Of a DNA stretch of 20,043 nt, positions 95 through 19,403 are shown piece by piece. Position 1 is the first letter of the stretch, and each line of letters begins with the position of its first letter. The notes beneath the pieces were generated by a model. That model saw only the letters and a program-made list of their open reading frames with translations. It was not told where the DNA came from and made no database searches. The translations under genes and the position numbers were made by a program. The stretch covers positions 1 to 20,043 of the IMG/VR virus record IMGVR_UViG_3300020428_000128. One strand, 5' to 3'. This DNA is from a virus.

Positions 95-3000
95 TTATAA
101 TCCAGTAACTACCCTTATAGAACCAGTATTTCTAAGTCCAGGTTCTGCATCAACACCACCATAATTTCTTCTTTGAATAGTTGGGAATGTTGATAGTCCA
201 GAATCAACAGTTAGACCAGTAACTCCAATAGAAATTGGTGATGTTGATCTAGTTCCATTATATAATCTACCCCAAGTTAATTTTCCAAGAGATATTGTTG
301 CACCGATATTAGTTTGATCATAGAAACCAGTTGTTGCTATTCCAACAATACCGTTAGTTGTACTTAGAACATTACATGTAATTTCTGCCTGATTATCATT
401 CAATTGAATGAATGAATGAACCTTGTAGATATTATCAAGGAAAGTTGATCCAATTGAAACAATTTCATCATCATTATTATCAACAGAAGTAACTCCAGAT
501 CCAACAGATATTTTAGTATCTTTAATTAGAACAGGATATCCAACTGCTAATTTATTTGCATTTGATTTAAATGATGTGAAGAAGAACTTAAGTTGTTTTC
601 CACCACCAGCATTTGTTCCTGTTATTCCAGTAATAATACCAGTATAACCCTCAACATTTGAGAAAGAAGTAATCTTCTCAGTTTCATATTGTGGATGTCT
701 AACTATACACTGAGGTGGATTTATTTCACTATATCCCAATCCAATATTAGTAATATCATAATCAGTTACTTTTCCATCTACTATAGTTGCAGTTGCTTCT
801 GCAAATGTAGATACACCAACAACAGCATACTTAGATTTTTCAGTTGTTCCAATACCAACACCAATTGGAGCAGCAATGCTTATTGTGGCAGCAGAACCAA
901 CATAACCACTACCAGAATTATCTATATTTAAAGATGTAATTGTTCCAGCAGCACTCACATTAGCAGATATTGCTGCAGGAGTTGAAGTTGCTGGTGACAT
1001 TAATAATGCATCGACTGCACTAATAACCACATTATATCTGTCACCAGATTCTAATGCTGGATTGTCTATATCTTCATAGAAGAATGATTCTGCATCATCT
1101 ACAAATATTCCACCAGTAAGACCAGCACCATCAGTAGTAGTTACATCATAAATTACTTTTGCTGTTGGATATATTTGAGGTTCAATAGTTTCTCTTGCTT
1201 TAGAAATTAATTCACCTTTAATAATTTTATCTTCTTTTTGTTTTGTCCAATCAAGAGGTTTGGATTGATTTTCATTAATACCAATACCACGATACATTGT
1301 AGTTTCAACAAGATCAGAACCAAGAATATCTTTTATAGTTCTTTCTTTTTCTTGGTCTATAGTATCTGGATATGATGGATGCTTATGAAGAATAACATCA
1401 TCACCAATCTTAATAGTTTCATTCACATTAACAAGTTCAATATCAACACCATCTTGACCTTTATAGAAGAATACATCAACTTTATCACTTGCCATTGGTG
1501 CTTCAGTAAATGTAAATGTTGTTCCACCTTCAAACTGATAAGCATATTTTGGTGTTTGTAGAACACCATTTACGAATATTAGTAAAACAGCATTTAAATC
1601 TATTTGATCACCTAATACTGAGTCTTCATCAATTTCAAAACTTAATAGTTGTCCATTAAAGAATAGTGGGAATCTTCTTCTAGTTCCATTCTGCATGGAA
1701 TTTAAACTATCAATGAAATCCAATTCTCCAAATTGCCAAGCAGAGAAGTAGTCATTAAATGTTTGAACAACTTCTAATTCAAACTCTTGTAATGGTTGCT
1801 GTAATCTCTTATCAACAACTAATCCAATTGGTTTAAATTTATCACCAACAGCAAATGAATGACCAGGTCTTGAAATAGTAAATTCGGATATTTCAAACAT
1901 ACTCTTAGCAGTACCAACTGAAGTTCTAGCAGCACCAACTTTTAAATTCATTAATAAATTCTTTCCAGTATCTTCAGTTTTTCCTACACCTAATCTAGAA
2001 ATACCAACAACTGGCATATCTTCATAAACTGGTTGTGGAGTTTCAATCAGAGGATTAACGTATTTTGCACCAGGATTCTTCACAGTAAATTCTAATGCAC
2101 CACCAGTTCCAGCAGGTGATTTACCTACCTGCAATCTCATAGTGTTTATTGTTACCTTACCAACAGGCAATGCTGTATTGTATGCTGGATCAGTTGTTCT
2201 TGGGTATGCATGGATTGTTTGATAACTATCTTGAGCACATCTGAATATAAGAGAGTTAGGTGCGATTGTTGCAGTTGCATTTGATTTTTGAATACAACCA
2301 TTTACAGTTTTACTAGGTACGAATGTATGTGTAAATTGTGATTCAGATGGATTTGGATTTACATTAACTCTGAATGTATCTACACTAGGAACTGCTGCGA
2401 TACTTAACCATTTTCCACTTGCATAATCAGTTGGTCTTGGATATGAATGCTCTGTTTGATTGTTATCTTTAGTACATGTAAATGTTAGACCATAATTTTC
2501 AATTAAAATCTTATCACCAACTTGATATCCATGATTAGTTTTAGTTAGAGTTAGATTTCCAGTATTCTTAACATAAGATGCATTTGTTGGTGTTATGGTA
2601 GAAGCACCACTAACATTATGATTATTACTAGTAATAATTAATTCACCAGTTGATGGTTCATAAGTTGCATCTGTTATAGTTGTAGTTCCATAGGAAACTG
2701 TAACGCTATTTGCTTGAGAACTTTCAAATTTATGCTTATTAGTTGCAACTTTTGTTTCAATAACAGCACCAGTTCCACCACCTCCACCAGATCCAACATT
2801 AATAGTAATTGTATTTGATGTAGCATTATCAATTCCTAATGTTTGTCCAGCAGCTGGATCAGTTGATCTTGGATATGGATGAACACTATTATGATTATCT
2901 CTAGAACAAGTAAAGTTCAAAGATTCTGTTACGATTGTAACAGTATCGGTTGTTCTAGATAATGCTTGTTTTGCAACATCTTGATTACTAACAAATGCGT

Positions 3001-6000
3001 GTGTATAATTTCCACCAGTTGTTACTGCATTCGGATTAGCACTAGAGAAAGTATGTTTTGTTATATTTGTTGATGGTATTGTAGTTAATGTTTGGATTGT
3101 AATAGATGTATCTGTAACAGATTCAATCTTGATTGCAGTATCATTGAAAGGATCTGTTGCCCTTGGATATGCTTTTTCAGCAGAGTTGTTATCTACATCA
3201 CACATGAATTTGATCGATTCAGATGCAAGTTTGATACTTGTACCTGGTCTTAGAGTATGAGCACCTATTACCAATTCCATCAAACCTGTAACTGGATCAT
3301 AATTTGCATTAGAAGGTGTAAATGATACTCCAGGTGATGTTCCAACATTAATATCAAATGTAAATTGAGTTACATTGCTAATAGTAATCCATTTTCCACT
3401 TATAGGATCAGAAGGTCTAGGATAAGTCTTCTGAGATACATTACCATCCATATCACAAGTGAAGGTTATTGAATTATCTGCTATCTTAATATAATCGCCA
3501 TTTGAGAAATTATGACCATTAGTCAATACACCTGCAGTAATTGTCACCGCACCAGTTGTTGGATTATAAGTAGCACCATCTATATCATGTAAAGTTGCTT
3601 GTGATAATCCGTGATTATTACCTATTGTTAATATTAAATCACCAGTAGATGAAGCATAATCAACAGTTGATGGTGTAAAGTTGGTTGTTGTATTAGCAAC
3701 AATTGAATTTGCACTAGATGAGACAAATTTGTGAGCAAATTCTATATCACTAACAATAACAGAAACAGGATCTCTATATCCAGAACCAAATGTTAGATCA
3801 TTGAAGAACTCATATGTATATCCACCACCATGATAGGTATGAGGAATAGTAGTCATTCCCACTTGAACTTCAAATGTTCTATCAGATATAATACCAACTA
3901 CTGGTAATGCTCTTTCATGATCTTGGAAAATTGAAGTTGTAATACCAACATAGTTGAGAGTCTGAACAGCATTTGCAGTTGCAGAAACAAATGTATGAGG
4001 ATCTGTATTAGTTGGAGTTGTTCCTAATAAAACATTAACCTTAAAAGTATCTGGGGTTACTGTATCGATGTAAAGATACTTGTCAAATGCAGGATCAGTT
4101 TCTCTAGGATAAGATTTACTTCCACCACTACCAAATGTGCAACTGAATACTAATGATTCTTTCTTAAATTTAATAGCATCACCATTTTGAAGTCCATGAT
4201 TAACGATTTTTATTGTTAATTCACCAGTTGATGGATCATATACTGTGCCACCAGTAACAGGAGTACCAACATCTTTAGTTGGACACTTGAATTCCAGATC
4301 CTTCAAATGAACAGTTTGTGGATATCCAAGAGCATAACCATGAGTAGTATTGGTAGTAACTGTTATAATTCCAGTTTTATTATCATAAGCAGCAGTTTGA
4401 ATACCTAAACTATATTTTGAAGATGTACCGACTCCAACAACATCAGTAATAGAACCAGCAGCAAATAAATTAGTATTATTTTTTAGATTTGCTTTAACTG
4501 TTGCACCAACAAGAGGAGCATATCCAAGACCAGGTGTTGATCCCATAGAAACAATCAGACCACCTCTTGGTAATTGATTTTGATTAATATCAAACTCAGA
4601 CTGCATTGGAGTTCCATTTTCTGAGCTAATTCCTGTAAATACAACACTAGAAATACCAACATTAGTATCTGTATCAAATTCGTAGTTATTACCTGCATTA
4701 TTAAAGGTAAGTGGTGTTTGGAATACACCATTAATGAATAATATACCGTTTCCAATACCAACACCTGTTATTGTGTTAGCACCACCAACAGTCATAGTAT
4801 AAGTTTTTCCTATTCCTGTAAATACATCAGAAATATCATCAAATACCATATTTGTATCATAATTACTCCTTAAGAAGGTTCTTCCACTAAATTCTGCCTT
4901 TACATAAGGTAAGTTTGTATCATTTCTTCTTTCTCTTGTATTTCCTTTTGGTGGATCTAAGAACCATACAGTACTATCAACAAGGTTAAATGATCCTCTA
5001 TGAACCATAGCAGTGCTTACACCAGCGTGTGGAGTTGCTCCTATACCCAAAGATCCTCTTCTAACTTTAACCACTGGTAAAGTGGATATACCTAGTGAAA
5101 CGTCTTTAGAATCATTAATTATTCCTTCTGGCAAACTGGAGAAACCAACTTGCTCAACCTTCATATATTCCTCACCAATCTTTAGAACATCTCTAGGTTG
5201 AACAGAACTAATACCACTAAGAACAAATTGTGAAGTTCCAGCACCAATAGCATCTCTTGTATGATGTTCAATAGTAGTAAATGTAATTGGTTGCTGAACA
5301 ATTCCATCTAATCCAATAACAGTCTTGGATAGTTTCTTAGTCATATCCAATGTATGTGCATTACCTTCACCTACACCAGTAAATGTTATTGCAACACCAG
5401 CAGTAATATATTCTTTTCTACTGTATAATTTGAATTTATCTTCATCTATAACCTTAACAAATACAGTTTCTGGTAGTATAGTTGTTACAAGACCAGCATT
5501 GTTTGTTGTAGATGCTATAGAAACTGCTGTTGCACCAACTCCAACAAAACTAGATCCAGGTTTATAAGTTAGTTCTTCATTATCATTGAAGAAATGATCT
5601 GCAATAGTAAATTGACCACTATGTTTTTCTAATTGAGTTGTATCTGCAGGATTAAATACCTTCCTGTAAATTGGAATACCTTCATGTTTTAGTTCAAAAT
5701 TAACCTTATTTGCCCTATCACCATTTTTACCATCATAGGCAGATAGGAATAATTCTCTTGATGTTGGACCAATCTTAAGTGGATCTGGAGTATTTACAAA
5801 ATCATTTACAGTATTAAACACTGTATTGAATGATTGAACTTCAATTAATGATGTTTGGGATGTATCTGGATAGAAATTAATATCAACAAAATCCCCACTT
5901 GTAACAGATCCGAAAGTACCTATTCCAGTATTAGAAGATCCTATAAATGGATATTGAATTGTTGTAACATCACCCGAATCTTGTAGAGTAACAACCTGAT

Positions 6001-9000
6001 GTATTGCAGATTTTTGCATTTCATTGCAAACTCTTACAATAGATTTAACAGAACTATCAATTCTCTTGTCAATTCTAGTAACTAAAATTGGAGTTGAAGT
6101 TCCAGTTTTGTATAATGACTCTAATCTAGCACTTCTTTCTGAACCACCTGGTTGTCCAGGAACAGAATAACGATAAGTTGATATACCAGCCGTAGTAGTT
6201 CCCAATCCAACAATATTTGCACTTACATTAATAAGTTTTTTGGTTTGATTTTCACATTCTAAGTATATTTTTCCAGATTCGTATTTTGCAGTTAGAATAC
6301 CAACTCTAGATGCACTGTAAGTAGAATTTAAAGTATCTACATATGTTTCTGCATAGTAGATATTAGTACCATCAAAATCAACAGTTACTTCACCATAATT
6401 GATAATCTTAGTAATATCATCCTGAAGTAATACATCAGCAACAAAACCATTAAAATCGGTTTCTGGGAATTCTGCAATTGTTGTTGTTGTAAATCCTATA
6501 ATATTGTTATTTGTATCAGTGCTGGCAATAGAAGCTTTAACATTAATACCAGTAATATCAATACTACCAATTGACTGCGATCCAGAAGTAATTGCATTAC
6601 TTGTAAATTCAGATTTAAGAACTTTTATATCATGATCACGATCATTTGGATCTGTAGGACTGAATAGTAAAGTTTTTCTTCCAAATAGATCAGAAGTTGC
6701 TGTAAAATCACCCAATTTCATATTTGAGAAATCTCCTGACTTCTCCACTAAAAATGCATTGGTTGTAGTAGTTAATACTGTTAATTCATTAAGTTGAACA
6801 TCATAGGTATCCGCATTTGTTGTTTGAATTAGATATTTTGTGAAATCATTTTCTACTTCTTCAATTTCAGTAAATGAATCTTGATATCCTTTACTTGAGA
6901 ATCTACCACTAATATCATCATGAAGTAAAACTCTGTTGGATTTACATTTTGTATAATCAGTTAATTTTAAGTTATCAAAAGTAATAAATTTAGATTTTGT
7001 TGGATCATTTTCTGGTCTAGCATCATAATCTCTTGCAAGATCAAAGTTGTTTATAGTATCAACTCTCTTATCATCTAAAATATCAACAACTATAACTGGT
7101 GTTGCTTGAATTGTAGTTCCAATACCAACTTTAATACTGGAAGCTATACCAACATCAGCAAAATTCTTAAGACCTGATGGATGAACTAATCTATTGATAG
7201 GATCAACTAATTTGTCCCAAGTAACTGGACTCTTAATAGAATATGAAAGATTTTGATAATAATCGTTGTTAGGAAGAACTTGGAAATCTTCATCCAATTT
7301 ACCAATATTATCAATCCATCCATATTCCTGTTTATTAGAATAATCTACTTTAAACTTAGCTCTATTTCCAACAATAGAAGTAACTGTCGCACTAACATTA
7401 CTATTAGAACCTTTAAGTCTATCTCCTATCTGTATATCATAAGTACCATCAATTTTAATAAAATCTTCTCTAGATTCTACAACAACCAAATCCTTTGAAA
7501 GGAATAAACCATTTTCTTCAAGTAGTAAATTCTCATTAAGTAAGAATTTACCTCTTTTCTGAACTACTTCAAATACAGGATAGTTTGATTTGTTTATAAT
7601 ATTTGCATATCCAGATTGGAATGTTTTTGCAACACCTGGATTTGTTGTTAATCCAGCTACACTATATTCTACTACTGCTGGATTTGAATTTGTATAATTC
7701 TCTACTTTAAAGAATTGGAATTGATAATTCTCAGAATTATATCCTGTTCCACCAGTATCAATACCTGCAGAACCAATATTACCTTGAGTTCCAATACCAG
7801 CTTCACCATATAATTCAACACCTTCAACAAATACTTCATCACCATTAGCAAAAGGTGGAGTAATAAATCCAGTTATCGGTGTTTCTAATGTACAAGTAAT
7901 AATTCCTGAGAAACTACCTGCCATTGAATTAATACCAATACCATTTGAGTTATTAACTGCAACAACTCTATGATTTACAGAATTTAATCCTTGTATTGGT
8001 GCAATAATCTCAATAGTTGATATTGATTGATTAGGTGTATTTGCAAGTGCAGAAGTTTCATCCACAACTTTATCACTTTCTGGATCATAAACGATTATAT
8101 CAGGTGATGAAAGATACTCAGAACCACCGTCAATTACATTAATACCAGTTATACTATCTACATTGTCAATTCTAATAACAGGAGATACAAATGCTTCTGG
8201 GTTTAAAGTCTTATCTGATGGATACTCGTAACCAATATCAACAATTCTAACATCACCAATTCTTCCAATTGATGTTGATAGTGCAACAATATTTGCATTC
8301 TTACCATTTAAACTATTAACAGATACAAATTTAGGAATACGCTTATAATCAAATCCCCTAGAAATTACCTTAATATCTTTAATTGCACCAGTAACAGTTT
8401 TTGATTCTGTAGAATATTCTATTGTTTCACACTGATCTTCCATATATGAAAGAAGTTCTGGAACAGATCTTGGAGAAATCTTAAATGTATCTGCAGTAAT
8501 ATCAAAAACTCTATAAGATCCACTATAAACACTATCAACAAATTTAATTTCAGAATAATTTTTAACTAGAGGATCTGCTGTACTAATATAACCAGACTTT
8601 TCTACTGCATAGAATAGTGATGTAGGTGTGGTCTCACTAAACGTGAGAGATATTGTAGACATTGATCCAACACCAACAGTACCAACACCTGTTCTATTAA
8701 ATACACTGCTATCTTGAGAACTAATAAATTCATTCTCAAAATTATTATCATAGAAGAATTTAAGATCATAACCACTTAAACTAGTGTCAGAGACATTAAA
8801 TGATAATGTAGAATTTTTTGTAGATCTAATTTGAGGATTAATTAATGAAAGTACGTGATTTTGACCACCAGTTGATGTAATTCCAACTAATCTTGGTGGA
8901 TTAACTTCCACATCACTTAAAGTTTCACCCAATCTAAATTCATTTGAACTTAACTCATAAACATAATAAGAAGGTTCTGTTAATCCCTCTGCTGGATCAT

Positions 9001-12000
9001 CATTACCAAAAATATCTGTACCACTGTATAAAAGTTTATCGCCAGTTTTATATCCATGATCATTTAATGTTATTGAAGAAGTTACAGTATTAATACCAGT
9101 TGAATTAAATCCAACACTATTAACTAATAACTTTTCATATTCTGAATCAAATGTTAATCCTAATGGTGCAGTAGATCCAAGTCCAACAACAGCATTAGGT
9201 AAAACATTTAGATTAATAATGTCACCATTACTTAATCCATGTGTTGTAGTATTTGCTAATCCAATCTTAGTAACTATTGTTGAAGTAATTTTATTAATAT
9301 CACCTGTAACTTGAGTATGATTAGTCTCTAAAAGATATTCAAAGTCATCAGATCCATTACCGTGGAAGAATAAACCTTCACTTGTACTTCCAATTGAAGT
9401 TCTCTCAGTTACAAGACCAACATAGTTTTCACCTTTATTGATGGCATAAACAGTAGAGGTATCAGTAGTGACATTTGGAATATTAAACAAATTGGTTGGT
9501 TGATCACTATCACCCACAACCAATGATGAAGCAGTTCCTCTCTTTGTAAATGTTAATTCTTGACCAGTCTTAAATGGGTGATTTGGAATATAAATCGTTC
9601 TAGTTAAAATTGGTGTCTCTGTAGTTGTTTCTCCTACAACATAATCAACAGTAATACTACTACCTGCAGTTGTTCCAACACCTACCGATTGTCTAGCATT
9701 GAAGTATGCAACATCATTACGGGTAGAATTAAATTTTTCAGTCTTAACTGGTATAGTAATTTCTTGATTTAATATATCAATTCTAGATCCATAAGTATGA
9801 GCAACACCTACACCAAACCTTTTTACTCTTAATATAGATCCAACGTCAAAAATATTCAAAACTTTAACTATCTCATCATCCTTAATTCTTAAAGTAGAAC
9901 CAATAGAAACAGTTTTAGGGATAATATTTACATAAAGATCATCTACTCTACCCTGAGTTATTGCATTAGCAGTCATAGACTTAGCTAATCCAATAGTATC
10001 GGTGCTAACACCAACAATAAATGAATTTGTAAGATGAACTATAGAACTACTCAATCCAGAAATAGAAACAGTATCCTTATCATTTAATTCAATGAAAGGA
10101 GCATATTTTGCAACAACTTCATTACCATTCTTCCATGTAAATACTGCATTCTCAAATGTTTCTAATTGAGTTTGAATACTAGAAACACCAATACCTGCTA
10201 ATGATGTAACTTGACCACGAAGACCTGTTCCACCTGTGTTAGTATCATCAAAATCAGTATAATCACCAACTTTATAATCTCTACCACCATCTAAAACTTG
10301 CAGTTCATCAATTATACCCGTTGTAACAGATTCTACGGTTGTTAATTGTCTTAAGAATTCATTAGACTCTACAATAAAATCATTATCCGCTAAAGGATCA
10401 CCTACCTTATATGGGAAGGTATTTCTAGATAAATTGGAATTATTGAAATCAAATTCTTGTGTTAATGTTGTATTTGATGATATGAATGGAGATCTATACG
10501 TTTTACCAACAAAATATGGGAAACTTGGATCTAATGTATTAGTTTGAGTACTTTCTGATACACTAGCAAAATACGCATAAACACCATTAGGAAATTCATC
10601 AGTTTTACAAAATCTTCCATTATGCTCATCTAAATTTCCACTGTCTGGATTAAACTGCCAATCATTAACAAAATATCCTTCAACAAACTCTTCTACATGA
10701 TCTGGGCGATCTACAACTTTACTTTTATCTAATTTGTATCCAGATGTTAAAATTCCTACATTAGGACCTAATTTACTTGGATCAGTGTATCCATATGGAC
10801 CATAAATTGGATTTCCATCAAATGCCCAACCAATAATAGGTGAGTGCTTTGATCCATCATCCTTAAAATTACTTGCAATATCTGAACTATATCCATGTAC
10901 AGAGAAATGTAAATTATCACCACCATCAGATATTAAAGCATTATTACCTTGCCTCTTTTGATTATCAATTGTTAATTTTCTAACTCTTGGTTCAAATAGA
11001 GCATTCTTACCCCTAGAAACAACAGATAGTGTGAGTTGATTGCTAGTATATCCAATACCACTATTAATTACTTTTACATCCGTTAATTTTCCATCAGTAA
11101 CTATTGGATTAAGAATAGCACCATTACCAAAAACACCCGTAGTAGTCATACCAACGGATTCTACTCTAATTTCTGGAGGTGAATTGTATTCAGATCCTCT
11201 ATTTAAAACATGAACATCAACAATTTTACCGTCAACAACAGATGCTTTTACTACACCATTTTTTCCATTTTGTATAGTTACTTTTGGATTTCTTTGATGA
11301 TTTAATATTGTGCTTCCATATTTACTTCCCTTTTCATAAAGATAAGTGTCAATAATACCACCAGTAACAATCGGGGTAAAATTAAATGTTCCTGTAGCAG
11401 TTGAACCAAAAGAAACTTGGCAATTTACTTCAATATCTGGATATTTAAAAGTTTGTAATCCTGTTCCTTGACTGGTTAATTGAACATAATTACCTCTATC
11501 ATAATTAACTTTTGAATCTGCTAATCTAAAAGAATTATCATCAATTTTTAATATGTAATAATTAACACCATTTAATCCACCGATTACAGTGCCAGATGTT
11601 GTATATTCAATAAAATCACCATCCGCAAATCCATGTTTATTGAAGTTTATCTTTGCATATTCAGTAGATACATTTTCAGGTTTTAGGTATAAATTTCTAT
11701 GCTGATAACCAGAACCTGGATTTATTACCTTGACTGATTGTAATGTCTTTTTAGATATTGTTCTAAACTTATGAATACCTGCAGCATCTGTTGCTGTAGA
11801 AATTCCTATTGTATTAATACCTGCTAATGCTTCATCTTTTGAATTATGTAATTGTACTGTTCTAGAATTTATTATTCTAACACTATATGGAGCACCAGTT
11901 GCTAATGTTCCAGTAGCAGTATTAGTTTGTGATTTATATGGTCCAATACCTATAGGATAATTTCCATTACTATTATAATAAACTACCTCACCTGTAGTAA

Positions 12001-14566
12001 GGAAATGATCAGTTTTGAATGATATAGTTTCATCTTCAATTGATAATCCACCAGCAAAGAAAATATCTCTACTATCAAATTCTAATTCTCTAAATCTATT
12101 ACCAATAATGGGTTCTAGTAAGCATCCAGATCCATTACCACCAGTTAAAGATATTGCTTTTACTTCCTCAATATCAAAATCATGAGGATCTACAAAAACA
12201 TTTTTAACAGAACCACTAATGACTGGTTCTACTAAAGCATCTACTCCACCACCAATACTACTATCCAATACTAATTTTGGTGGATTTACTACATCATATT
12301 CATCTCCAGAATTATATACATCTACAGATTCAATAGGACCATAGTAAATATAATCCTCCGAAATTGGTGATCTAATCTGAACACCATCAATTAATATTCC
12401 AATATCATTAATAGGTTCTTGATTACTACCAGAAACGTATAAATTTTGGGTCAGAGGGAATTTACGTAAAATCTTATTTGCTGTTAATTTCTTATTATTT
12501 TGATTTAACTTTACTAGTTCATGACTTGATATAGATGTTTTTTCTTTTACTCTAACACAATTAGTTTCGTTAAAAATTAGACTCCTTGAACGGTACAGTC
12601 TAACGCTTGTAACACCAATGTTTGCACCCATTGGTATTTTTTCAATGTAATAAGTATCACCCGATACTAACCCTTCTAGGGCATTATCAGAGTTATATAC
12701 AACTGCATCTCCAGTAATTAATCTAAAATCACTACTAGGGAACTCAATCATTCCATAATCATCAGTAACTTTGTTATGATCTGATAGATTTGGAATAGCA
12801 GATGCTATTCCTACAGAAATAATTTTAACATTAGAACCTAATGTATAACTTGGTAATGAGTTTGAAGCAACATATAGATCTTTATCATCATCAACATAAA
12901 CATTTGAAACACTAGATAAAACTTTTGAATCACCTTCTAATATTTCTACACCATTACTGGTTGCTTTAATTAATTTTCTTCTTATATCATAATATGCACC
13001 AGATACTGGATTAAATGAAGATAATCCAGATAATGTAACTTCAGTATTATTTAAACCAACATTAGTAATTTCAGCAAATGCAATTTCAACAGTTTCAGAG
13101 TTTCTCTGTAATATCTCAACCTTGTCACCCTTCTTTAAACTAGATTTATCTACAGCACTTGATAATCTAAAGGTAGATCCTACAATTTCCTCAACCTGAT
13201 ATCTACAACTTGTATTATAAATCCATGAATTTGCAAAAATTTCCTTATAAGTCTTATTGATAGATGGATTAGATATAGATTCTCCAACATTCTTAACGTA
13301 AATCCTTTCTCCAGCATTAACTAAAGATATATCAGAAACTGCTCTAAATTCAGATAAAACACCAGTAATTCTTAAATCAACTCTCTTTGTTAGATCACCA
13401 TCTTCATAACCAAATATAACTTCATCAGCCCTAACATCAGATCCAGCAGAGATTGATTCAACTATATTACTACATCCAAAGAATTGATTAACAGATGTTG
13501 AAGTATATGTAATAGAATTAATACCACATAAAACATATCCACTTTTAGCAAATCCAATAGTTGAATCAACTGTAAGTACATTATCACCAACTGAAGTATT
13601 CTCTAATACTTTAGTTTTACCTGGAATTGTGAATATTCCATTAATTAAGTCTCTATCATCAAAACCAACAAATAGAGAGATCTTGTAATATACTTTATTA
13701 TCTCTAGTTAATATCTCAACTTCAGAAACAGATCCACTAGTATCTAAATCTGTAGATTTTGTAATCGTTTGTCCTACTAATTTTGAAGGATCTCCACTTA
13801 TAGGTTCAGCAATTATAACTTCTCTTCTTATAAACTCAGAACTAGATGGTTTGATTAATCTTTCTTCCAAATCTAAAACAATAGATTCTTCACCAAATAA
13901 TACTTTTAATAGAATTTTTATAGATTCTTCAATACCTTTGGATTGATAGAATGATCTTGCATTCTTAATAAAGTTACCAACATCAAGATCAGATACAAAA
14001 TCATTATTTTCTAATCCAGGTAAAAAAGTTTTCTTTAACTTTTTATAGAATTCTTGTATGAATAAAACACTTAAATTAGTTACTTCAGACCCTATTACAT
14101 GATCTTCTGCTACAGTATCTTCAAAAACTAAACCTTCTTTATTGACATTATCTAAAGAAGTGGATATTCCAACACTAAACCCACTTATTCCACTAAAACC
14201 ACGAATAAGACCTGTAAATGTAGTATCATTCTTACCCTGATATGTAATAATCTCATTACCAATCTTTAAAAGACCGTATGTATCAGGAAATCCTTTAGTT
14301 GAAGTTACAGTAAGTGTTTCTGATGTTTTATCAAGAGCTGATGTTGTTACAGTAGTTCCAAATACAACTTCAGGAACTAAATTATCAACTTTAAGATATT
14401 GGTCAAAATTATCAATTAAATCGGTTGCACCACCCTGAAATTCTTGGGAGAGATAATATTGTTTGAGAAATTCCGTAGTTAATGGAAAATCAGACCTAAT
14501 AAACTCAGGTAACTGACTTTCAATTATTGTATTAACTTGAATTCGCTTATCGATGCCTATGCTCAT
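95..14566 (-). CDS. Giant modular virion protein, gp7-position baseplate/tail structural protein (4823 aa)
   Basis: One uninterrupted frame of 4823 residues (roughly 520 kDa) starts directly at the gp6 stop (TAAATG, no gap); GAGAG lies about 7 bases upstream of the ATG. It occupies the place of T4 gene 7 (a wedge protein of about 1030 aa) but is over four times longer. Residues 1-270 form a non-repetitive N-terminal part typical of marine T4-like phages (IESQLPEFIRSDFP, then FIQEFYKKLKKTFLPG). The rest is beta-rich and modular: repeated HG..GD..Y units, at least eleven v.V.n.GsgY units, repeated L.IG.E-type units, a YHYH domain near 1235-1335, a six-copy Cys/YPR-TDP array at about 3390-4170, a poly-Gly linker near 3925, and a C-terminal FVNGVLQTP / DKVDVFFYKG segment near 4325-4370. 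No signal peptide, membrane segment or catalytic motif was recognised. A structural baseplate role is inferred from position and composition; equivalence to gp7 is not shown. A long tail fibre or adhesin-like component is the alternative. Confidence 0.9.
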   Translation of the reverse strand: MSIGIDKRIQVNTIIESQLPEFIRSDFPLTTEFLKQYYLSQEFQGGATDLIDNFDQYLKVDNLVPEVVFGTTVTTSALDKTSETLTVTSTKGFPDTYGLLKIGNEIITYQGKNDTTFTGLIRGFSGISGFSVGISTSLDNVNKEGLVFEDTVAEDHVIGSEVTNLSVLFIQEFYKKLKKTFLPGLENNDFVSDLDVGNFIKNARSFYQSKGIEESIKILLKVLFGEESIVLDLEERLIKPSSSEFIRREVIIAEPISGDPSKLVGQTITKSTDLDTSGSVSEVEILTRDNKVYYKISLFVGFDDRDLINGIFTIPGKTKVLENTSVGDNVLTVDSTIGFAKSGYVLCGINSITYTSTSVNQFFGCSNIVESISAGSDVRADEVIFGYEDGDLTKRVDLRITGVLSEFRAVSDISLVNAGERIYVKNVGESISNPSINKTYKEIFANSWIYNTSCRYQVEEIVGSTFRLSSAVDKSSLKKGDKVEILQRNSETVEIAFAEITNVGLNNTEVTLSGLSSFNPVSGAYYDIRRKLIKATSNGVEILEGDSKVLSSVSNVYVDDDKDLYVASNSLPSYTLGSNVKIISVGIASAIPNLSDHNKVTDDYGMIEFPSSDFRLITGDAVVYNSDNALEGLVSGDTYYIEKIPMGANIGVTSVRLYRSRSLIFNETNCVRVKEKTSISSHELVKLNQNNKKLTANKILRKFPLTQNLYVSGSNQEPINDIGILIDGVQIRSPISEDYIYYGPIESVDVYNSGDEYDVVNPPKLVLDSSIGGGVDALVEPVISGSVKNVFVDPHDFDIEEVKAISLTGGNGSGCLLEPIIGNRFRELEFDSRDIFFAGGLSIEDETISFKTDHFLTTGEVVYYNSNGNYPIGIGPYKSQTNTATGTLATGAPYSVRIINSRTVQLHNSKDEALAGINTIGISTATDAAGIHKFRTISKKTLQSVKVINPGSGYQHRNLYLKPENVSTEYAKINFNKHGFADGDFIEYTTSGTVIGGLNGVNYYILKIDDNSFRLADSKVNYDRGNYVQLTSQGTGLQTFKYPDIEVNCQVSFGSTATGTFNFTPIVTGGIIDTYLYEKGSKYGSTILNHQRNPKVTIQNGKNGVVKASVVDGKIVDVHVLNRGSEYNSPPEIRVESVGMTTTGVFGNGAILNPIVTDGKLTDVKVINSGIGYTSNQLTLSVVSRGKNALFEPRVRKLTIDNQKRQGNNALISDGGDNLHFSVHGYSSDIASNFKDDGSKHSPIIGWAFDGNPIYGPYGYTDPSKLGPNVGILTSGYKLDKSKVVDRPDHVEEFVEGYFVNDWQFNPDSGNLDEHNGRFCKTDEFPNGVYAYFASVSESTQTNTLDPSFPYFVGKTYRSPFISSNTTLTQEFDFNNSNLSRNTFPYKVGDPLADNDFIVESNEFLRQLTTVESVTTGIIDELQVLDGGRDYKVGDYTDFDDTNTGGTGLRGQVTSLAGIGVSSIQTQLETFENAVFTWKNGNEVVAKYAPFIELNDKDTVSISGLSSSIVHLTNSFIVGVSTDTIGLAKSMTANAITQGRVDDLYVNIIPKTVSIGSTLRIKDDEIVKVLNIFDVGSILRVKRFGVGVAHTYGSRIDILNQEITIPVKTEKFNSTRNDVAYFNARQSVGVGTTAGSSITVDYVVGETTTETPILTRTIYIPNHPFKTGQELTFTKRGTASSLVVGDSDQPTNLFNIPNVTTDTSTVYAINKGENYVGLVTERTSIGSTSEGLFFHGNGSDDFEYLLETNHTQVTGDINKITSTIVTKIGLANTTTHGLSNGDIINLNVLPNAVVGLGSTAPLGLTFDSEYEKLLVNSVGFNSTGINTVTSSITLNDHGYKTGDKLLYSGTDIFGNDDPAEGLTEPSYYVYELSSNEFRLGETLSDVEVNPPRLVGITSTGGQNHVLSLINPQIRSTKNSTLSFNVSDTSLSGYDLKFFYDNNFENEFISSQDSSVFNRTGVGTVGVGSMSTISLTFSETTPTSLFYAVEKSGYISTADPLVKNYSEIKFVDSVYSGSYRVFDITADTFKISPRSVPELLSYMEDQCETIEYSTESKTVTGAIKDIKVISRGFDYKRIPKFVSVNSLNGKNANIVALSTSIGRIGDVRIVDIGYEYPSDKTLNPEAFVSPVIRIDNVDSITGINVIDGGSEYLSSPDIIVYDPESDKVVDETSALANTPNQSISTIEIIAPIQGLNSVNHRVVAVNNSNGIGINSMAGSFSGIITCTLETPITGFITPPFANGDEVFVEGVELYGEAGIGTQGNIGSAGIDTGGTGYNSENYQFQFFKVENYTNSNPAVVEYSVAGLTTNPGVAKTFQSGYANIINKSNYPVFEVVQKRGKFLLNENLLLEENGLFLSKDLVVVESREDFIKIDGTYDIQIGDRLKGSNSNVSATVTSIVGNRAKFKVDYSNKQEYGWIDNIGKLDEDFQVLPNNDYYQNLSYSIKSPVTWDKLVDPINRLVHPSGLKNFADVGIASSIKVGIGTTIQATPVIVVDILDDKRVDTINNFDLARDYDARPENDPTKSKFITFDNLKLTDYTKCKSNRVLLHDDISGRFSSKGYQDSFTEIEEVENDFTKYLIQTTNADTYDVQLNELTVLTTTTNAFLVEKSGDFSNMKLGDFTATSDLFGRKTLLFSPTDPNDRDHDIKVLKSEFTSNAITSGSQSIGSIDITGINVKASIASTDTNNNIIGFTTTTIAEFPETDFNGFVADVLLQDDITKIINYGEVTVDFDGTNIYYAETYVDTLNSTYSASRVGILTAKYESGKIYLECENQTKKLINVSANIVGLGTTTAGISTYRYSVPGQPGGSERSARLESLYKTGTSTPILVTRIDKRIDSSVKSIVRVCNEMQKSAIHQVVTLQDSGDVTTIQYPFIGSSNTGIGTFGSVTSGDFVDINFYPDTSQTSLIEVQSFNTVFNTVNDFVNTPDPLKIGPTSRELFLSAYDGKNGDRANKVNFELKHEGIPIYRKVFNPADTTQLEKHSGQFTIADHFFNDNEELTYKPGSSFVGVGATAVSIASTTNNAGLVTTILPETVFVKVIDEDKFKLYSRKEYITAGVAITFTGVGEGNAHTLDMTKKLSKTVIGLDGIVQQPITFTTIEHHTRDAIGAGTSQFVLSGISSVQPRDVLKIGEEYMKVEQVGFSSLPEGIINDSKDVSLGISTLPVVKVRRGSLGIGATPHAGVSTAMVHRGSFNLVDSTVWFLDPPKGNTRERRNDTNLPYVKAEFSGRTFLRSNYDTNMVFDDISDVFTGIGKTYTMTVGGANTITGVGIGNGILFINGVFQTPLTFNNAGNNYEFDTDTNVGISSVVFTGISSENGTPMQSEFDINQNQLPRGGLIVSMGSTPGLGYAPLVGATVKANLKNNTNLFAAGSITDVVGVGTSSKYSLGIQTAAYDNKTGIITVTTNTTHGYALGYPQTVHLKDLEFKCPTKDVGTPVTGGTVYDPSTGELTIKIVNHGLQNGDAIKFKKESLVFSCTFGSGGSKSYPRETDPAFDKYLYIDTVTPDTFKVNVLLGTTPTNTDPHTFVSATANAVQTLNYVGITTSIFQDHERALPVVGIISDRTFEVQVGMTTIPHTYHGGGYTYEFFNDLTFGSGYRDPVSVIVSDIEFAHKFVSSSANSIVANTTTNFTPSTVDYASSTGDLILTIGNNHGLSQATLHDIDGATYNPTTGAVTITAGVLTNGHNFSNGDYIKIADNSITFTCDMDGNVSQKTYPRPSDPISGKWITISNVTQFTFDINVGTSPGVSFTPSNANYDPVTGLMELVIGAHTLRPGTSIKLASESIKFMCDVDNNSAEKAYPRATDPFNDTAIKIESVTDTSITIQTLTTIPSTNITKHTFSSANPNAVTTGGNYTHAFVSNQDVAKQALSRTTDTVTIVTESLNFTCSRDNHNSVHPYPRSTDPAAGQTLGIDNATSNTITINVGSGGGGGTGAVIETKVATNKHKFESSQANSVTVSYGTTTITDATYEPSTGELIITSNNHNVSGASTITPTNASYVKNTGNLTLTKTNHGYQVGDKILIENYGLTFTCTKDNNQTEHSYPRPTDYASGKWLSIAAVPSVDTFRVNVNPNPSESQFTHTFVPSKTVNGCIQKSNATATIAPNSLIFRCAQDSYQTIHAYPRTTDPAYNTALPVGKVTINTMRLQVGKSPAGTGGALEFTVKNPGAKYVNPLIETPQPVYEDMPVVGISRLGVGKTEDTGKNLLMNLKVGAARTSVGTAKSMFEISEFTISRPGHSFAVGDKFKPIGLVVDKRLQQPLQEFELEVVQTFNDYFSAWQFGELDFIDSLNSMQNGTRRRFPLFFNGQLLSFEIDEDSVLGDQIDLNAVLLIFVNGVLQTPKYAYQFEGGTTFTFTEAPMASDKVDVFFYKGQDGVDIELVNVNETIKIGDDVILHKHPSYPDTIDQEKERTIKDILGSDLVETTMYRGIGINENQSKPLDWTKQKEDKIIKGELISKARETIEPQIYPTAKVIYDVTTTDGAGLTGGIFVDDAESFFYEDIDNPALESGDRYNVVISAVDALLMSPATSTPAAISANVSAAGTITSLNIDNSGSGYVGSAATISIAAPIGVGIGTTEKSKYAVVGVSTFAEATATIVDGKVTDYDITNIGLGYSEINPPQCIVRHPQYETEKITSFSNVEGYTGIITGITGTNAGGGKQLKFFFTSFKSNANKLAVGYPVLIKDTKISVGSGVTSVDNNDDEIVSIGSTFLDNIYKVHSFIQLNDNQAEITCNVLSTTNGIVGIATTGFYDQTNIGATISLGKLTWGRLYNGTRSTSPISIGVTGLTVDSGLSTFPTIQRRNYGGVDAEPGLRNTGSIRVVTGL
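2100..4390 (-). repeat. Array of about six Cys/YPR-TDP beta modules inside the giant protein
   Basis: The composite unit runs: Y.P.TG.L.I (a short beta segment), then (N/T)HG...GD.I.I, then SL.F.C..D, then YPR.TDP, then an I..V...TF.VNV stretch ending near HTF.S..NAV. The YPR-TDP cores are encoded near 2187-2209, 2427-2446, 2855-2878, 3150-3170, 3404-3425 and 4091-4110. Each follows a single conserved Cys by roughly 10-13 residues. Spacing between cores is irregular (about 80 to 230 residues) because the Y.P.TG/HG..GD segments are inserted in variable number. Copies have diverged at the DNA level, so this is old duplication rather than recent expansion. The function of the module is not known to me. 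Confidence 0.8.
10555..10862 (-). other. YHYH domain within the giant protein (about residues 1235-1338)
   Basis: The translated segment has the hallmarks of the YHYH family: H-SPIIGWAFDGNPIYGPYGY at the start, then about 50 residues later LDEHNGRF, then F(P)NGVYAYFAS. The family is named for a YHYH motif and occurs in bacterial secreted proteins and in marine phage structural proteins; its biochemical role is not established. Here it is embedded between GSGY-type beta repeats (about residues 900-1190) and further beta-rich sequence, so it is an inserted globular domain and not a separate gene. Confidence 0.75.
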
Positions 14567-16507
14567 TTATTTTCTCTCTAGATCTCCATTAGAGTAACTT
14601 GATGTGTAATAGTCTCTTGAGAATACAACGCCCGAAACATCTTCTCCAGAAGCAATTACGTCCTTAACCATATTTATTCTACTATTTGAAACATCAAATG
14701 TAAGATAAAGATCTTTAAGACCAATAATATCGTTAGAATCGGGAAACGCTTGTATTTCTAGCAAATTATTGCTTACTGACGTTGATGTTATATTTAACGT
14801 ATTTAAAATTATCTCTCCTTTTGTATAATCAACTGTTCCTGCTGATTTTGCAATAACTTTCAACTCATCTTTTTGATTTCGTGTAATAACACTCAAAATA
14901 CCCTTTCCACTACCATCTAAAGTACCATCTTCTTTCTTATTTGGTATATCAGTTAAAAATACAACATCATTTGACCCAGATACGGTAAATCCAGTACTCT
15001 TAATGTTAAATCCTTCAGGATTGATGTGAAATTTATTACCAAAACACAATTCATACTGTGCAAAGGTGTCAATTAGGACTTTTAGATCTCTTCTAATCTT
15101 TACTTTCGTAATATTTGATGTAATTGCAGTATCAACACGATCAATTAATTGTAAAATCTTACTATATTTAAATCTACCACCAAATTTGTTAATATCAACG
15201 GTATTTGAGTAATTTGTAAGAGAATCTACGATTCTTGTGCGTAATCTTTCATTATTTGTCACCTGAGATGTGTTATAATAGATGTCTGAATCTATTTCCA
15301 CATATAAAACCTTCAAATCTACGATTTCTGAGTTAATTCCAGCAATCGCATAACTCTTTAACTTGTTTTTTATTTGCTGTTTATCAAAATCAGAGACAAA
15401 TGTACCATTTTTTGGTTTTATACTGATTTGAACTTGACCAAATTTGGGAGGAGTCAGTTCTTCACCCCCAACAACGGCAACAGACTCTGTTTTTGGGTAA
15501 ATTGTCTTGATTATTGCCTCATAATCCCTACCTGTAACCGCCCTGTATTGAGAAGAATACAGTCTAGGTGCAAAATACTTAATAGAAGAAACATCTTCCA
15601 TCTCAGCACCGTTTGAAGCACCATTTACAGTGTTTATAGTAACTCCAACTGATGGAATTACAGTTTGTACATTAACATCACCAGGGTCTCTATCGGCAAA
15701 TACACCTTGAAAATCAAATTCAGAAGCACCATTACCAGTTTCACCATCAGTAACAAGGTATCTTACTGTTACAACGGAGTTATTGTCTAGTTTTTTACCA
15801 AAATAACCATCACCAAACAGTATTTCATATCTTTCATCTTGAATTTCCTGTACAAAGAAGATTTCTGAGTTCTTATCAATCTTCAAAATGTTATCAATCA
15901 TGGAAAATTCTCTTCCAAGACCAGTATCAGCAGGACCACTTACAAATACAGTAATACTTGAAGCATCAATATTGCCATTTGGTAGTATAAATTTTTGATC
16001 TGTATTATTATTTGCAATAAATTGTGCAGATAATACCGTTCCTTGAGAAACTTCTATAGGTGAATCTGCAGATCCAAAGGTTGCAACCCCATTTACAATG
16101 GGAACAGACATTGATTGTGTTCTTGAGAACGAATATGTGCTATTATTTGTCTTTCCTACGCATACTAAACCAGGTTTTAGATGTAATAATGGTCTAGTTG
16201 AGGCAGTTTCTACTGTAAAATGTACATGTGCCTTTGCAGAAGTCTTTGAACGTGGTACATAACCAATATTTCTTGCCAAAGAAACTACATTTTCTCTAAT
16301 TGTTGCAGAATCTAGGAAAGATTCATTCGCAATTAAGTTTGCATTGAATGCGTTTATATAAGTATTGTATGCTAAAGTATCAATTAAGATTGAAAAGTTA
16401 GAACCTTCAAAATCAAAATCAGTAAAATTGCTGTTTGCACGAAGATAATCCCTTATTTGGGATTTAATCTGATCAAAATCTAAGCTTGTAAATTGAGTAA
16501 AAGGCAT
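14567..16507 (-). CDS. gp6: Baseplate wedge subunit gp6
   Basis: This 646-residue protein matches T4 gp6 in length (about 660 aa) and place. T4 gp6 dimers form the iris ring around the central hub and connect the wedges through gp25, gp53 and gp7. The N-terminal part (residues about 8-95) has the conserved gp6 pattern SLDFDQIKSQIRDYL, then FEGSNFSILIDTLAYNTY, then RENVVSLARNIGYVPRS. A baseplate-J-like region (about 305-415) contains YFAPRLYSSQYRAVTGRDYE followed by IYPKTESVAVVGGEE and IKNKLKSYAI. The start ATG lies 4 bases after the gp25 stop, and the stop abuts the ATG of the giant gene, so the three genes probably form one translationally coupled late unit expressed from the promoter at 16944-16951. 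No frameshift or truncation is seen. Confidence 0.95.
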   Translation of the reverse strand: MPFTQFTSLDFDQIKSQIRDYLRANSNFTDFDFEGSNFSILIDTLAYNTYINAFNANLIANESFLDSATIRENVVSLARNIGYVPRSKTSAKAHVHFTVETASTRPLLHLKPGLVCVGKTNNSTYSFSRTQSMSVPIVNGVATFGSADSPIEVSQGTVLSAQFIANNNTDQKFILPNGNIDASSITVFVSGPADTGLGREFSMIDNILKIDKNSEIFFVQEIQDERYEILFGDGYFGKKLDNNSVVTVRYLVTDGETGNGASEFDFQGVFADRDPGDVNVQTVIPSVGVTINTVNGASNGAEMEDVSSIKYFAPRLYSSQYRAVTGRDYEAIIKTIYPKTESVAVVGGEELTPPKFGQVQISIKPKNGTFVSDFDKQQIKNKLKSYAIAGINSEIVDLKVLYVEIDSDIYYNTSQVTNNERLRTRIVDSLTNYSNTVDINKFGGRFKYSKILQLIDRVDTAITSNITKVKIRRDLKVLIDTFAQYELCFGNKFHINPEGFNIKSTGFTVSGSNDVVFLTDIPNKKEDGTLDGSGKGILSVITRNQKDELKVIAKSAGTVDYTKGEIILNTLNITSTSVSNNLLEIQAFPDSNDIIGLKDLYLTFDVSNSRINMVKDVIASGEDVSGVVFSRDYYTSSYSNGDLERK

Positions 16508-16511
16508 ATTA

Positions 16512-16913
16512 CTATCTTGTTGGTTCTAAAAGGAACGAAAATTCTTGTGTTGGTGCTTCTAATCCACGTATATCGAAGAATACTGTTACATCAAATGCAT
16601 TTGAATCTGGATTCACGTTTAATTCCACGTTTAAGTTTTCAATTCTTGGTTCATATCTAGTTACTGATTCAACAATTTGGTCTTTTATAACGACCTTTAA
16701 TGTTGGATAGTAGTTTTCAAATAAACTTGCTCGAATATCAGTACCTAATGATGAATTAAAGAACCTTTCAGTTGGAATGGTTTCAACTAAATTTCTAACA
16801 GACCTAGTAATGGCACGTTCATTGTTTAAAGATGTTATATCTTTAGTCACAGGATGTGGTTTAAAAGATAGACTGATATCTTTAAATGCTTGTGATGTAC
16901 GTTTTACTGCCAT
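16512..16913 (-). CDS. gp25: Baseplate wedge subunit gp25 (GPW/gp25 family)
   Basis: The protein has 133 residues; T4 gp25 has 132. It shows the family pattern: SLSFKPHPVTKDI near the N-terminus (residues 14-26), AITRSVRNLVETIPTERFF (34-52), SLF.NYYPTL (63-72) and the hallmark EPR motif at residues 88-90 within TRYEPRIENLNVEL. In T4, gp25 joins the gp6 ring to the gp53 region and helps start sheath assembly; homologues include the T6SS protein TssE. It is the first gene after a perfect late promoter, with a leader of about 25-30 bases. AGG directly touches the ATG and a clearer AGAGG lies further upstream, so ribosome binding is not textbook. The gene ends in tandem in-frame stops, TAG TAA, before gp6. 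Confidence 0.95.
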   Translation of the reverse strand: MAVKRTSQAFKDISLSFKPHPVTKDITSLNNERAITRSVRNLVETIPTERFFNSSLGTDIRASLFENYYPTLKVVIKDQIVESVTRYEPRIENLNVELNVNPDSNAFDVTVFFDIRGLEAPTQEFSFLLEPTR

Positions 16914-16961: not shown

Positions 16962-17669
16962 TTATTTTGATCCGTGTGATGGATATTCATCTACCCAAGA
17001 GGTGCAGATATACTTTGTACCACCAATTGGAGGGTTTCCACGGTGTGTATGCGTCCAAGCAGCAGGAAAAATAACGTATTTACCTATTTTTGGTTTAACT
17101 CTTACCGATTGATATAAAAATTCAGTCTCTCCACCTTCAAAATCATCGTTTAAGTAGAGTATAGTAACTAATTGACGATAAGGTGCATTAGAACCATGAT
17201 CAGCATGCCAATTATGAAAACCTTCACTTGGTTTTGTCCTTTGTAACTTAGCAACCTTAGAGTCCATTTGTTTCAACCCTAACGTTTCATATTTGTTTAT
17301 ATAATTATCAATCGCAATTCGTGAAGTAATATTCCAAGCACGGAATACATCAGTCATACAATCAAATCCATAGGAATCTACTTCAGGATAAGCATACCCT
17401 ATAGGATCAAACATATTCTTTCTTATTCCAGAAGCAAGCACTTCATTTACATATATTTGAGTATCTTTTACAATTTGATCATTTCGATACCTATAAGCAT
17501 CACTACTTTCTAAATGCTCAAAAAACTCTACAAAAAAACCCAGATTCAATTGAATCGGGTCAAATTGGTATTCACTAATAAAATTAGAATGATGTTGAAC
17601 ATCTAATAATCTAGGTTCTTCTGCTCTTGCAAATTGATGAATGGGAGACTTCCCTTCAACATGTTTCAT
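16962..17669 (-). CDS. 2OG-Fe(II) oxygenase, prolyl-4-hydroxylase-like (235 aa)
   Basis: This is a probable non-heme iron, 2-oxoglutarate-dependent dioxygenase. The C-terminal half has the full facial triad on a double-stranded beta-helix pattern: H155-x-D157 in FHNWHADHGS, the distal His (H208, less likely H206) in FPAAWTHTHRGNPP, and a basic 2OG-binding residue (K219) in GGTKYICTSW. Strand motifs RQLVTILYLND and GGETEF between them are typical of the prolyl 4-hydroxylase alpha-subunit superfamily. The N-terminal 140 residues are family-specific and I recognise no further domain there. The ATG overlaps the stop of the preceding 48-aa gene (ATGA), implying coupling. It is the last gene before the gp25 late promoter. 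Its substrate (protein side chain, nucleotide or small molecule) cannot be read from sequence. A terminator-like hairpin lies inside the gene. Confidence 0.85.
   Translation of the reverse strand: MKHVEGKSPIHQFARAEEPRLLDVQHHSNFISEYQFDPIQLNLGFFVEFFEHLESSDAYRYRNDQIVKDTQIYVNEVLASGIRKNMFDPIGYAYPEVDSYGFDCMTDVFRAWNITSRIAIDNYINKYETLGLKQMDSKVAKLQRTKPSEGFHNWHADHGSNAPYRQLVTILYLNDDFEGGETEFLYQSVRVKPKIGKYVIFPAAWTHTHRGNPPIGGTKYICTSWVDEYPSHGSK
17532..17560 (-). terminator. Terminator-like hairpin with T-tract inside the oxygenase gene
   Basis: On the minus strand, ACCC + GATTCAATTGAATC + T + GGGT is followed by TTTTTT. This gives a stem of five A/T-rich pairs closed by AATT, one bulged T, four further pairs at the base, then the T run. 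It has the layout of a Rho-independent terminator for leftward transcription but lies within the coding sequence (about residues 37-46). It could attenuate transcripts running into the rest of the gene or could be fortuitous. The stem is short and weak in GC. Confidence 0.35.
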
Positions 17670-18776: not shown

Positions 18777-19403
18777 TTACCCTCGTATATTGTTAAGTAT
18801 TAGATCACCACCAAATGGTAGTTTAGGAAAGGTATTAAAAGATAAACTAACTCGATTATATTCTGAACGATTCTGAGGCACACTATGTACTAATTGACTT
18901 GAGAATAAAACTAAAGAACCAGGTATAGATGCTACATCACGAGTTGTACAAAGATATGGATTATACTCTGAAGTATCCATTATCTGATCTTCAAACGAAT
19001 AACTAAAGTTCTTTAATTGACTATGAAAACGTATTGGAGAACCATGTTCTTCTTCTGATGCAATATAAAACGTACCACTTAGAAAACTATTACTATGAAA
19101 ATGAGCAGGTAAATCCTGACCTGGTTTATTTACATTTACCCAAGAATTCTGTATCGTAACCTCATTCTTTGTATTTACTATCTTCTCTGCATAATCTTGA
19201 ATACATTCTTTAAACCATTCTTGTAGAACAGAAAACTCCTTCTCATCTAAAATCCAACGATTTACACTCTTACAGTTACCATTGACCTCTTGATCATAAT
19301 CTAATGTCTGAATATATTTAAAGATAGATTCTATATCTCCATCCCATTGATATGCAACAACAGGTGCTATTGCAAACGTTTCAATTAAGTTACCTTCTAC
19401 CAT
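18777..19403 (-). CDS. Putative 2OG-Fe(II) oxygenase, TIGR02466-like (208 aa)
   Basis: The protein fits the TIGR02466 group of putative 2OG-Fe(II) oxygenases. QNSWVNVNKPGQDLPAHFH (residues 85-103) is followed by SNSFLSGTFYI, the pattern where family members bind metal before an SG-x-Y-Y strand. PGSLVLFSSQLVHSVPQN supplies the distal His (H173), and R184 in NRVSLSFN is the likely 2-oxoglutarate-binding Arg. The proximal motif reads H101-F-H103, so the usual HxD is HxH here. The start overlaps the previous gene's stop by one base (TAATG), indicating translational coupling with the 193-aa oxygenase. No ribosome site of its own is obvious. Stops at 18777, just before the sigma-70 promoter of the next unit. 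Substrate unknown. Confidence 0.75.
   Translation of the reverse strand: MVEGNLIETFAIAPVVAYQWDGDIESIFKYIQTLDYDQEVNGNCKSVNRWILDEKEFSVLQEWFKECIQDYAEKIVNTKNEVTIQNSWVNVNKPGQDLPAHFHSNSFLSGTFYIASEEEHGSPIRFHSQLKNFSYSFEDQIMDTSEYNPYLCTTRDVASIPGSLVLFSSQLVHSVPQNRSEYNRVSLSFNTFPKLPFGGDLILNNIRG

Follow-up and report, generated by a model that had tools for sequence, protein, structure and literature searches.

The IMG/VR virus record IMGVR_UViG_3300020428_000128 is a fragment of 20,043 bases (hereafter, the window) and carries, in a giant reading frame for a gp7-like baseplate wedge protein, six copies of one unit in which an F.C motif is followed by YPR and TDP. Sequence comparisons demonstrate that this unit is repeated, define its carrier and its spread, and reveal that in relatives whole units are inserted, exchanged and nested within one another. 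On the basis of structure prediction, the unit is a small beta-barrel of the endosialidase-barrel/E1 FCCH kind. The explanation that we favour as a whole, and that we consider probable, though by a moderate degree, is that tandem and nested small barrels on the C-terminal part of gp7 are shuffled, exposed and in contact with glycans or other structures of the host surface.

The carrier open reading frame (ORF; 95–14566, on the minus strand like all the other features given here in window coordinates) encodes 4823 amino acids (aa) and holds all six units. In a PHROGs profile search, phrog_2885 ("baseplate wedge subunit") matched this ORF at 4426 bits, with the best stretch at aa 1–3631. Its closest known counterparts are the gp7 proteins of Kyanoviridae, and that of Prochlorococcus phage P-SSM2 (PSSM2_111, YP_214343.1) is a direct orthologue, with 70.2% identity for carrier aa 1–999 and 73.7% for the C-terminal 646 aa. 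The gene order is identical in the two phages, with gp25 (16512–16913) and gp6 (14567–16507) followed by the gp7 gene; gp8 comes next in P-SSM2, and the window stops short of it. These comparisons identify the virus as a marine cyanomyovirus akin to P-SSM2 and the carrier as its gp7 "baseplate wedge" protein, whose baseplate role is read from gene order and annotation.

The array spans positions 2054–4255. An earlier note on this DNA had described six repeats, and all six are indeed found in a single minus-strand frame: the pattern F.C.{8,14}YPR.[ST]D has 6 matches in the carrier protein, as compared to a mean of 0.0 across 2000 shuffles of it. The first residues of the six F.C...YPR stretches are aa 3474, 3702, 3787, 3885, 4029, and 4108, with 11–12 residues between F.C and YPR. 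As for the individual motifs, the Asp of the proposed F.C..D is present in five of the six units, unit 1 reading FSCTFG, and the proposed TDP is exact in four, being replaced by SDP in unit 2 and by TDY in unit 5. The Y.P.TG.L and HG..GD segments had been regarded as accessory elements flanking the repeat; the consensus of 836 copies (PTAATYDPTTGVLTLTIGNHGLKAGDSIKIADNSLTFTCAKDNNATEHTYPRATDPASGKWLEITNVTTNTFTVNVGKSPSTNTTTHTFVSATANGVKK) places both of them inside one unit of about 90–107 aa, of which they constitute the first strands. They seem irregular because units 4 and 6 are degenerate in their N-terminal halves, and because the array also includes two extra half-units and, apparently, a split seventh unit.

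Unit 1 covers aa 3438–3543 (3938–4255) and has an empty site for nested insertion in its Cys/YPR hairpin (FSCTFGSGGSKSYPR). Unit 2 (aa 3662–3750; 3317–3583) is abutted without a gap by unit 3 (aa 3751–3857; 2996–3316), which is followed by unit 4 (aa 3862–3963; 2678–2983), unit 5 (aa 3993–4100; 2267–2590), and unit 6 (aa 4085–4171; 2054–2314). The extra Y...TG half-unit before unit 2 (aa 3634–3658; 3593–3667) is indicated by its motif and by a weak hmmsearch match (domain 4, score −1.2), while the extra Y.P.TG half-unit before unit 5 (aa 3966–3992; 2591–2671) corresponds to hmmsearch domain 8. Finally, unit 1 itself seems to be enclosed by a seventh unit, which is split and degenerate. Its apparent N-terminal half, ending in F-K-C (aa 3392–3430; 4277–4393; hmmsearch domain 1), aligns in hhalign to positions 4–42 of the unit profile (probability 90, E = 1.4e-6). 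The C-terminal half is uncertain: a tentative candidate in which YPR is lost (aa 3559–3625; 3692–3892) gives a weak hmmsearch alignment to profile positions 66–101 (score 0.0).

The strong constraint postulated for Cys, YPR, and TDP is borne out by a set of 183 units less than 70% identical to one another. In this set the Cys is conserved in 100% of the units, Tyr-Pro-Arg in 99/100/99%, and both the Asp of TDP and the Gly of TG in 97%. High values are also found for the His of HTF (H87, 96% where present), the Asp after the Cys (D42, 90%), the Phe before the Cys (89%), and the His of HG (H20, 87%); H48 is retained in 69% of the units and replaced by Lys in 24%.

The fold of the unit was predicted from two independent AlphaFold models, one of the pair formed by units 2 and 3 and one of unit 1. 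The model of the pair (m5f084deb262a), built with 55 sequences, is all-beta with a mean predicted local distance difference test (pLDDT) score of 89.5, and unit 1 is likewise confidently folded (m437154da3621, pLDDT about 90). In the modelled secondary structure the Cys closes one strand and, after a short turn, YPR opens the next; therefore, the two motifs are located on opposite arms of one hairpin. The candidates obtained with Foldseek were re-aligned with VIA-align for ranking. For the pair, the top match is the phi92 endosialidase (residues 256–337; Z 7.5, root-mean-square deviation [rmsd] 2.1, 75 aligned), together with E1 UBA1 (214–294; Z 7.2) and the K1F endosialidase barrel (Z about 7.1); in this model, unit 3 is matched to the endosialidase barrel and to E1 FCCH. 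With unit 1, the first 40 rows consist only of E1 FCCH domains and endosialidase barrels (Z 5.7–7.3), unrelated rows reaching at most 5.3. Here UBA1 (214–297) scores Z 7.3, and the phi92 and K1F barrels Z 7.2 and about 6.3–6.4, respectively, at 20–25% identity (20% over 79 residues for K1F 424–508). Both models thus point to a small beta-barrel and not to the beta sandwich mentioned in the earlier note; among the families listed by Foldseek, FNIII pairs have E values of 0.006 or worse and an rmsd of about 15 Å, and the TM-scores of the FNIII/Ig matches are ≤0.26.

The view that the unit corresponds to no named domain holds in so far as no Pfam family is reached at its cut-off, but the fold resembles PF12195 and PF16190. 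The profile search of the units that had been proposed as a check gave weak matches to these two families, all of them below threshold: of the 55 members searched, 9 match PF12195 (best 3.8e-4) and 8 match PF16190 (best 0.0041). The consensus, unit 1, and an HGFADGD segment of the carrier outside the array (aa 965–1050; 11417–11674) score 14–16 bits against PF12195, whose gathering cut-off is 35 bits, and the same segment scores 14 bits against PF16190 (cut-off 29.5 bits). Since these values lie below the cut-offs, we place the unit in the endosialidase/FCCH fold group and file it in neither Pfam family. The HGFADGD segment, which has sub-threshold matches to End_beta_barrel (0.013) and E1_FCCH (0.055), is one of the better-scoring stretches outside the array when compared with the unit profile, and an HGYKTGD segment (aa 1822–1915; 8822–9103; End_beta_barrel 0.22) is the top-scoring one wholly outside the array region. 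Both are likely plain relatives of the unit barrel that have no Cys/YPR. When the unit profile is run against the entire K1F tailspike (1064 aa), its top local hit is TIHVPDHGLFVGDFVNFSNSAVT (residues 443–465), which falls inside the barrel. The sequence KYPRMTD at K1F 988–994 was discarded as chance. Each of these lines, the fold matches of the models included, is weak, but they agree with one another.

Like the unit, the endosialidase barrel (PF12195; about 425–506 in K1F endoNF and about 256–337 in phi92) is an all-beta barrel of ~80 residues belonging to a phage host-contact protein, and the two have the motif HG(L)..GD.(V/I).(F/I) in common. The YPR unit differs in its F.C...YPR hairpin and TDP loop, in forming arrays and in nesting; moreover, it sits in a baseplate wedge protein, whereas the endosialidase barrel is part of a catalytic tailspike, and a domain search found no endosialidase domain in the carrier ORF. 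The E1 FCCH domain (PF16190) has the same barrel arrangement (Z about 7 over 75–79 residues), but it belongs to eukaryotic ubiquitin-activating enzymes and has no functional link with the unit. The Ig-like decorations of phage structural proteins are likewise small, exchangeable beta domains carried by proteins of the virion. They resemble the units by analogy of role only and would represent a different fold class, the barrel matches aligning at 2–3 Å.

The unit profile recovers 836 units in 82 reading frames, with 2–31 units per frame. The array as query finds 725 places in 368 phage records and the consensus finds 328 phage records, all of which are named Synechococcus, Prochlorococcus, cyanophage or marine virus. 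The annotations at the matched places are gp7, structural protein, tail fibre, and short tail fibre, and in P-SSM2 itself units occur not only in gp7 but also in PSSM2_022, 293, and 301, all three with a tail fibre annotation (the match to 293 is weak). Two units are present in the T4-GC 969 protein of phage S-SM1. Mass spectrometry of purified S-SM1 virions has revealed this protein (PMC3037559); therefore, at least one carrier of the unit is a virion protein. The longest arrays include those of giant ORFs in L060, L071, L074, and L077, with 20–31 units each, several of them with nested units. Among cellular genome assemblies, the consensus matched only four contigs of marine metagenome-assembled genomes (MAGs), none labelled cyanobacterial and all probably mis-binned phage. 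The contigs L089–L092, binned into Planctomycetaceae, Dehalococcoidia, and Euryarchaeota MAGs, encode long arrays of units and are probably mis-binned cyanophage DNA. In PHROGs, phrog_1276 (unknown), phrog_5342 (tail fiber), and phrog_18802 (structural) each have their best stretch on the units, but they are clusters of whole proteins that do not describe the unit as a domain. The carrier genes are already known and annotated; among the titles and abstracts brought up by literature searches, none describes the unit, the fold that it adopts or the way in which it nests in itself.

The shuffling of modules inside the gene, as envisaged in the earlier note, turns out to be more elaborate than proposed, comprising both nested insertions and exchange of single units. 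In most gp7 loci the window units 1–6 have one-to-one counterparts in the same order, and additional units are found between units 4 and 5, between units 5 and 6, or inside unit 1. In P-SSM2 gp7, which is 5195 aa long and has ten unit matches, units 1–4, 9, and 10 correspond to window units 1–6 (67–84%), while the four extra units, located between window units 4 and 5, include one nest; in this isolate, whose genome is complete, one unit is thus nested in another. Overall, we identified 31 cases (19 of them distinct) in which one whole unit fills a break in another. The break occurs at either of two sites, in the gap between F.C and YPR or right after YPR, and the halves of the broken unit end and restart at matching profile positions. 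Profile fragments also end at positions 23–29 (half units) and 64–74 (units running into the next), so that profile boundaries alone cannot prove nesting; for this reason, only matched triples of N-terminal half, unit, and C-terminal half were counted.

The site FSCTFGSGGSKSYPR of unit 1 illustrates this behaviour. Empty in the window, it is filled in L043 and L052 and in L034, L035, L037, L039, and L042, where the filling amounts to about 100 residues including a complete extra unit. Outside unit 1, L023 (site empty) and L034 (site filled) share about 98% identity over some 2160 residues. An insert of 107 aa containing a nested unit lies in unit 1 of L034, where the agreement with L023 at four-fold degenerate sites falls to 56%. 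On the other hand, unit 1 of L023 matches the window at about 90% of the four-fold sites, as compared to mostly 33–75% elsewhere. The region concerned, aa 1387–1548 of the L023 ORF against aa 3433–3593 of the window ORF, is nearly window-like at silent sites. Because unit 1 of L023 is window-like at these sites and its surroundings have diverged, the pattern is best explained by recombination that moved unit 1 singly between lineages, beyond mere conservation.

How these observations could fit together is suggested by the fold. The six units would represent tandem and nested copies of one barrel domain on the C-terminal part of the giant gp7. The Cys on one arm of the hairpin and the Tyr-Pro-Arg opening the other may work like staples that hold the two arms of the structure together, so that the loop between them could lengthen or even hold a second domain while the barrel remains intact; such a clamp would account for the tolerance of long insertions. 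The hairpin loop would face outward, and the modules, exposed on baseplate and fibres, would touch glycans or other structures of the host surface, as the K1F barrel does with polysialic acid. If so, shuffling of the modules would alter the contact surface. This adhesive role is inferred by analogy. In K1F the barrel binds polysialic acid and is a hotspot of host discrimination, and its loops, S460 among them, influence the set of E. coli strains that the phage infects (PMC12632334). The profile aligns K1F S460 to unit position 31, and the Cys/YPR hairpin comes straight after the aligned part; we regard this correspondence as a lead for a contact role, not as proof. It is also conceivable, though we consider it doubtful, that the Cys/YPR hairpin is a docking socket for further copies, with which recombination builds branched, Russian-doll-like adhesive trees on the baseplate as a modular and hitherto undescribed host-recognition system.

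Several points weigh against the favoured explanation as a whole. The K1F barrel has been reported to be largely mutation-tolerant (PMC12632334). No family was found at a curated cut-off, and Foldseek gave no PDB match with E <0.001; with Z values of ~7 (<8), a shared arrangement of strands without common descent is possible. PDB sequence searches with the array, the whole protein, and the unit profile gave no credible match for any of them, no solved structure, T4 gp7 included, matching the carrier by sequence. Moreover, in the model of aa 3386–3624 only unit 1 is confident, and the halves of the outer unit around it have pLDDT <50; as a result, nesting within the window is read from the sequence of the N-terminal half alone. 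Alternatively, the array could be a structural spacer or stiffener without a ligand, a string of beads that extends a baseplate arm or holds neighbouring proteins and whose copy number sets the length. This is a reasonable possibility, albeit a clearly less probable one. The number of units varies from 2 to 31 while the hydrophobic, turn, and C/YPR positions stay constant, the copies diverge in sequence as spacers can, and units are found in gp7 and fibre proteins alike, all of which would suit a spacer. However, nesting alters the shape sideways and not the length, recombinational exchange of single units between lineages is typical of surface-contact regions, and the K1F barrel, to which the unit is related in fold, is glycan-binding (PMC12632334).

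The invariant Cys, together with the conservation of H20, H87, H48, and D42 reported above, might also be taken as the sign of a metal or redox site, or of Cys pairing across units. We consider this improbable. The consensus has one Cys per unit, which makes a disulfide within a unit unlikely; H48 is replaced by Lys in about a quarter of the units; and H20 belongs to the HG..GD turn, a motif present as well in K1F (DHGLFVGD) and in carrier segments devoid of F.C/YPR, so that this His seems to be a general turn residue. An artefact, i.e., a chance repeat, low complexity or misassembly of a metagenomic contig, might be suspected in that the window comes from IMG/VR as a fragment. Nevertheless, no match is expected in the shuffles, the same array recurs in P-SSM2, an isolate, and on dozens of independent contigs, and a nest is present in the complete P-SSM2 genome; the isolate genomes already refute an artefact, to which we assign a negligible probability. 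Overall, shuffled barrels in contact with the host surface remain the explanation that we prefer.

Some further features of the window deserve mention. In the Pfam and NCBIfam searches of the whole carrier ORF the only match is a YHYH domain (PF14240, 88 bits) at aa 1219–1339 (10550–10912), outside the array. Two genes for 2-oxoglutarate-Fe(II) (2OG-Fe(II)) oxygenases (16962–17669 and 18777–19403) adjoin the baseplate genes, as they do in P-SSM2. The P-SSM2 counterpart of the gene at 19403–19984 is annotated as denV (endonuclease V). This label may be wrong, because the gene has no endonuclease match in Pfam and phrog_274 weakly matches its oxygenase-like neighbours too.

Marine cyanomyoviruses are among the most abundant viruses of the ocean, yet for many of the giant proteins that make up their baseplates and fibres the annotation goes no further than structural or hypothetical. 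Recognising the unit means that a fold can be predicted for hundreds of repeats, spread over at least 328 phage records. In addition, self-nesting at a fixed hairpin, with empty and filled versions in phages otherwise about 98% identical along the residues compared, provides an unusual natural record of domain insertion. Finally, recognition of the unit leads to a testable idea, namely that swaps and nesting of a single small barrel may be how these phages alter the surface turned towards the host.

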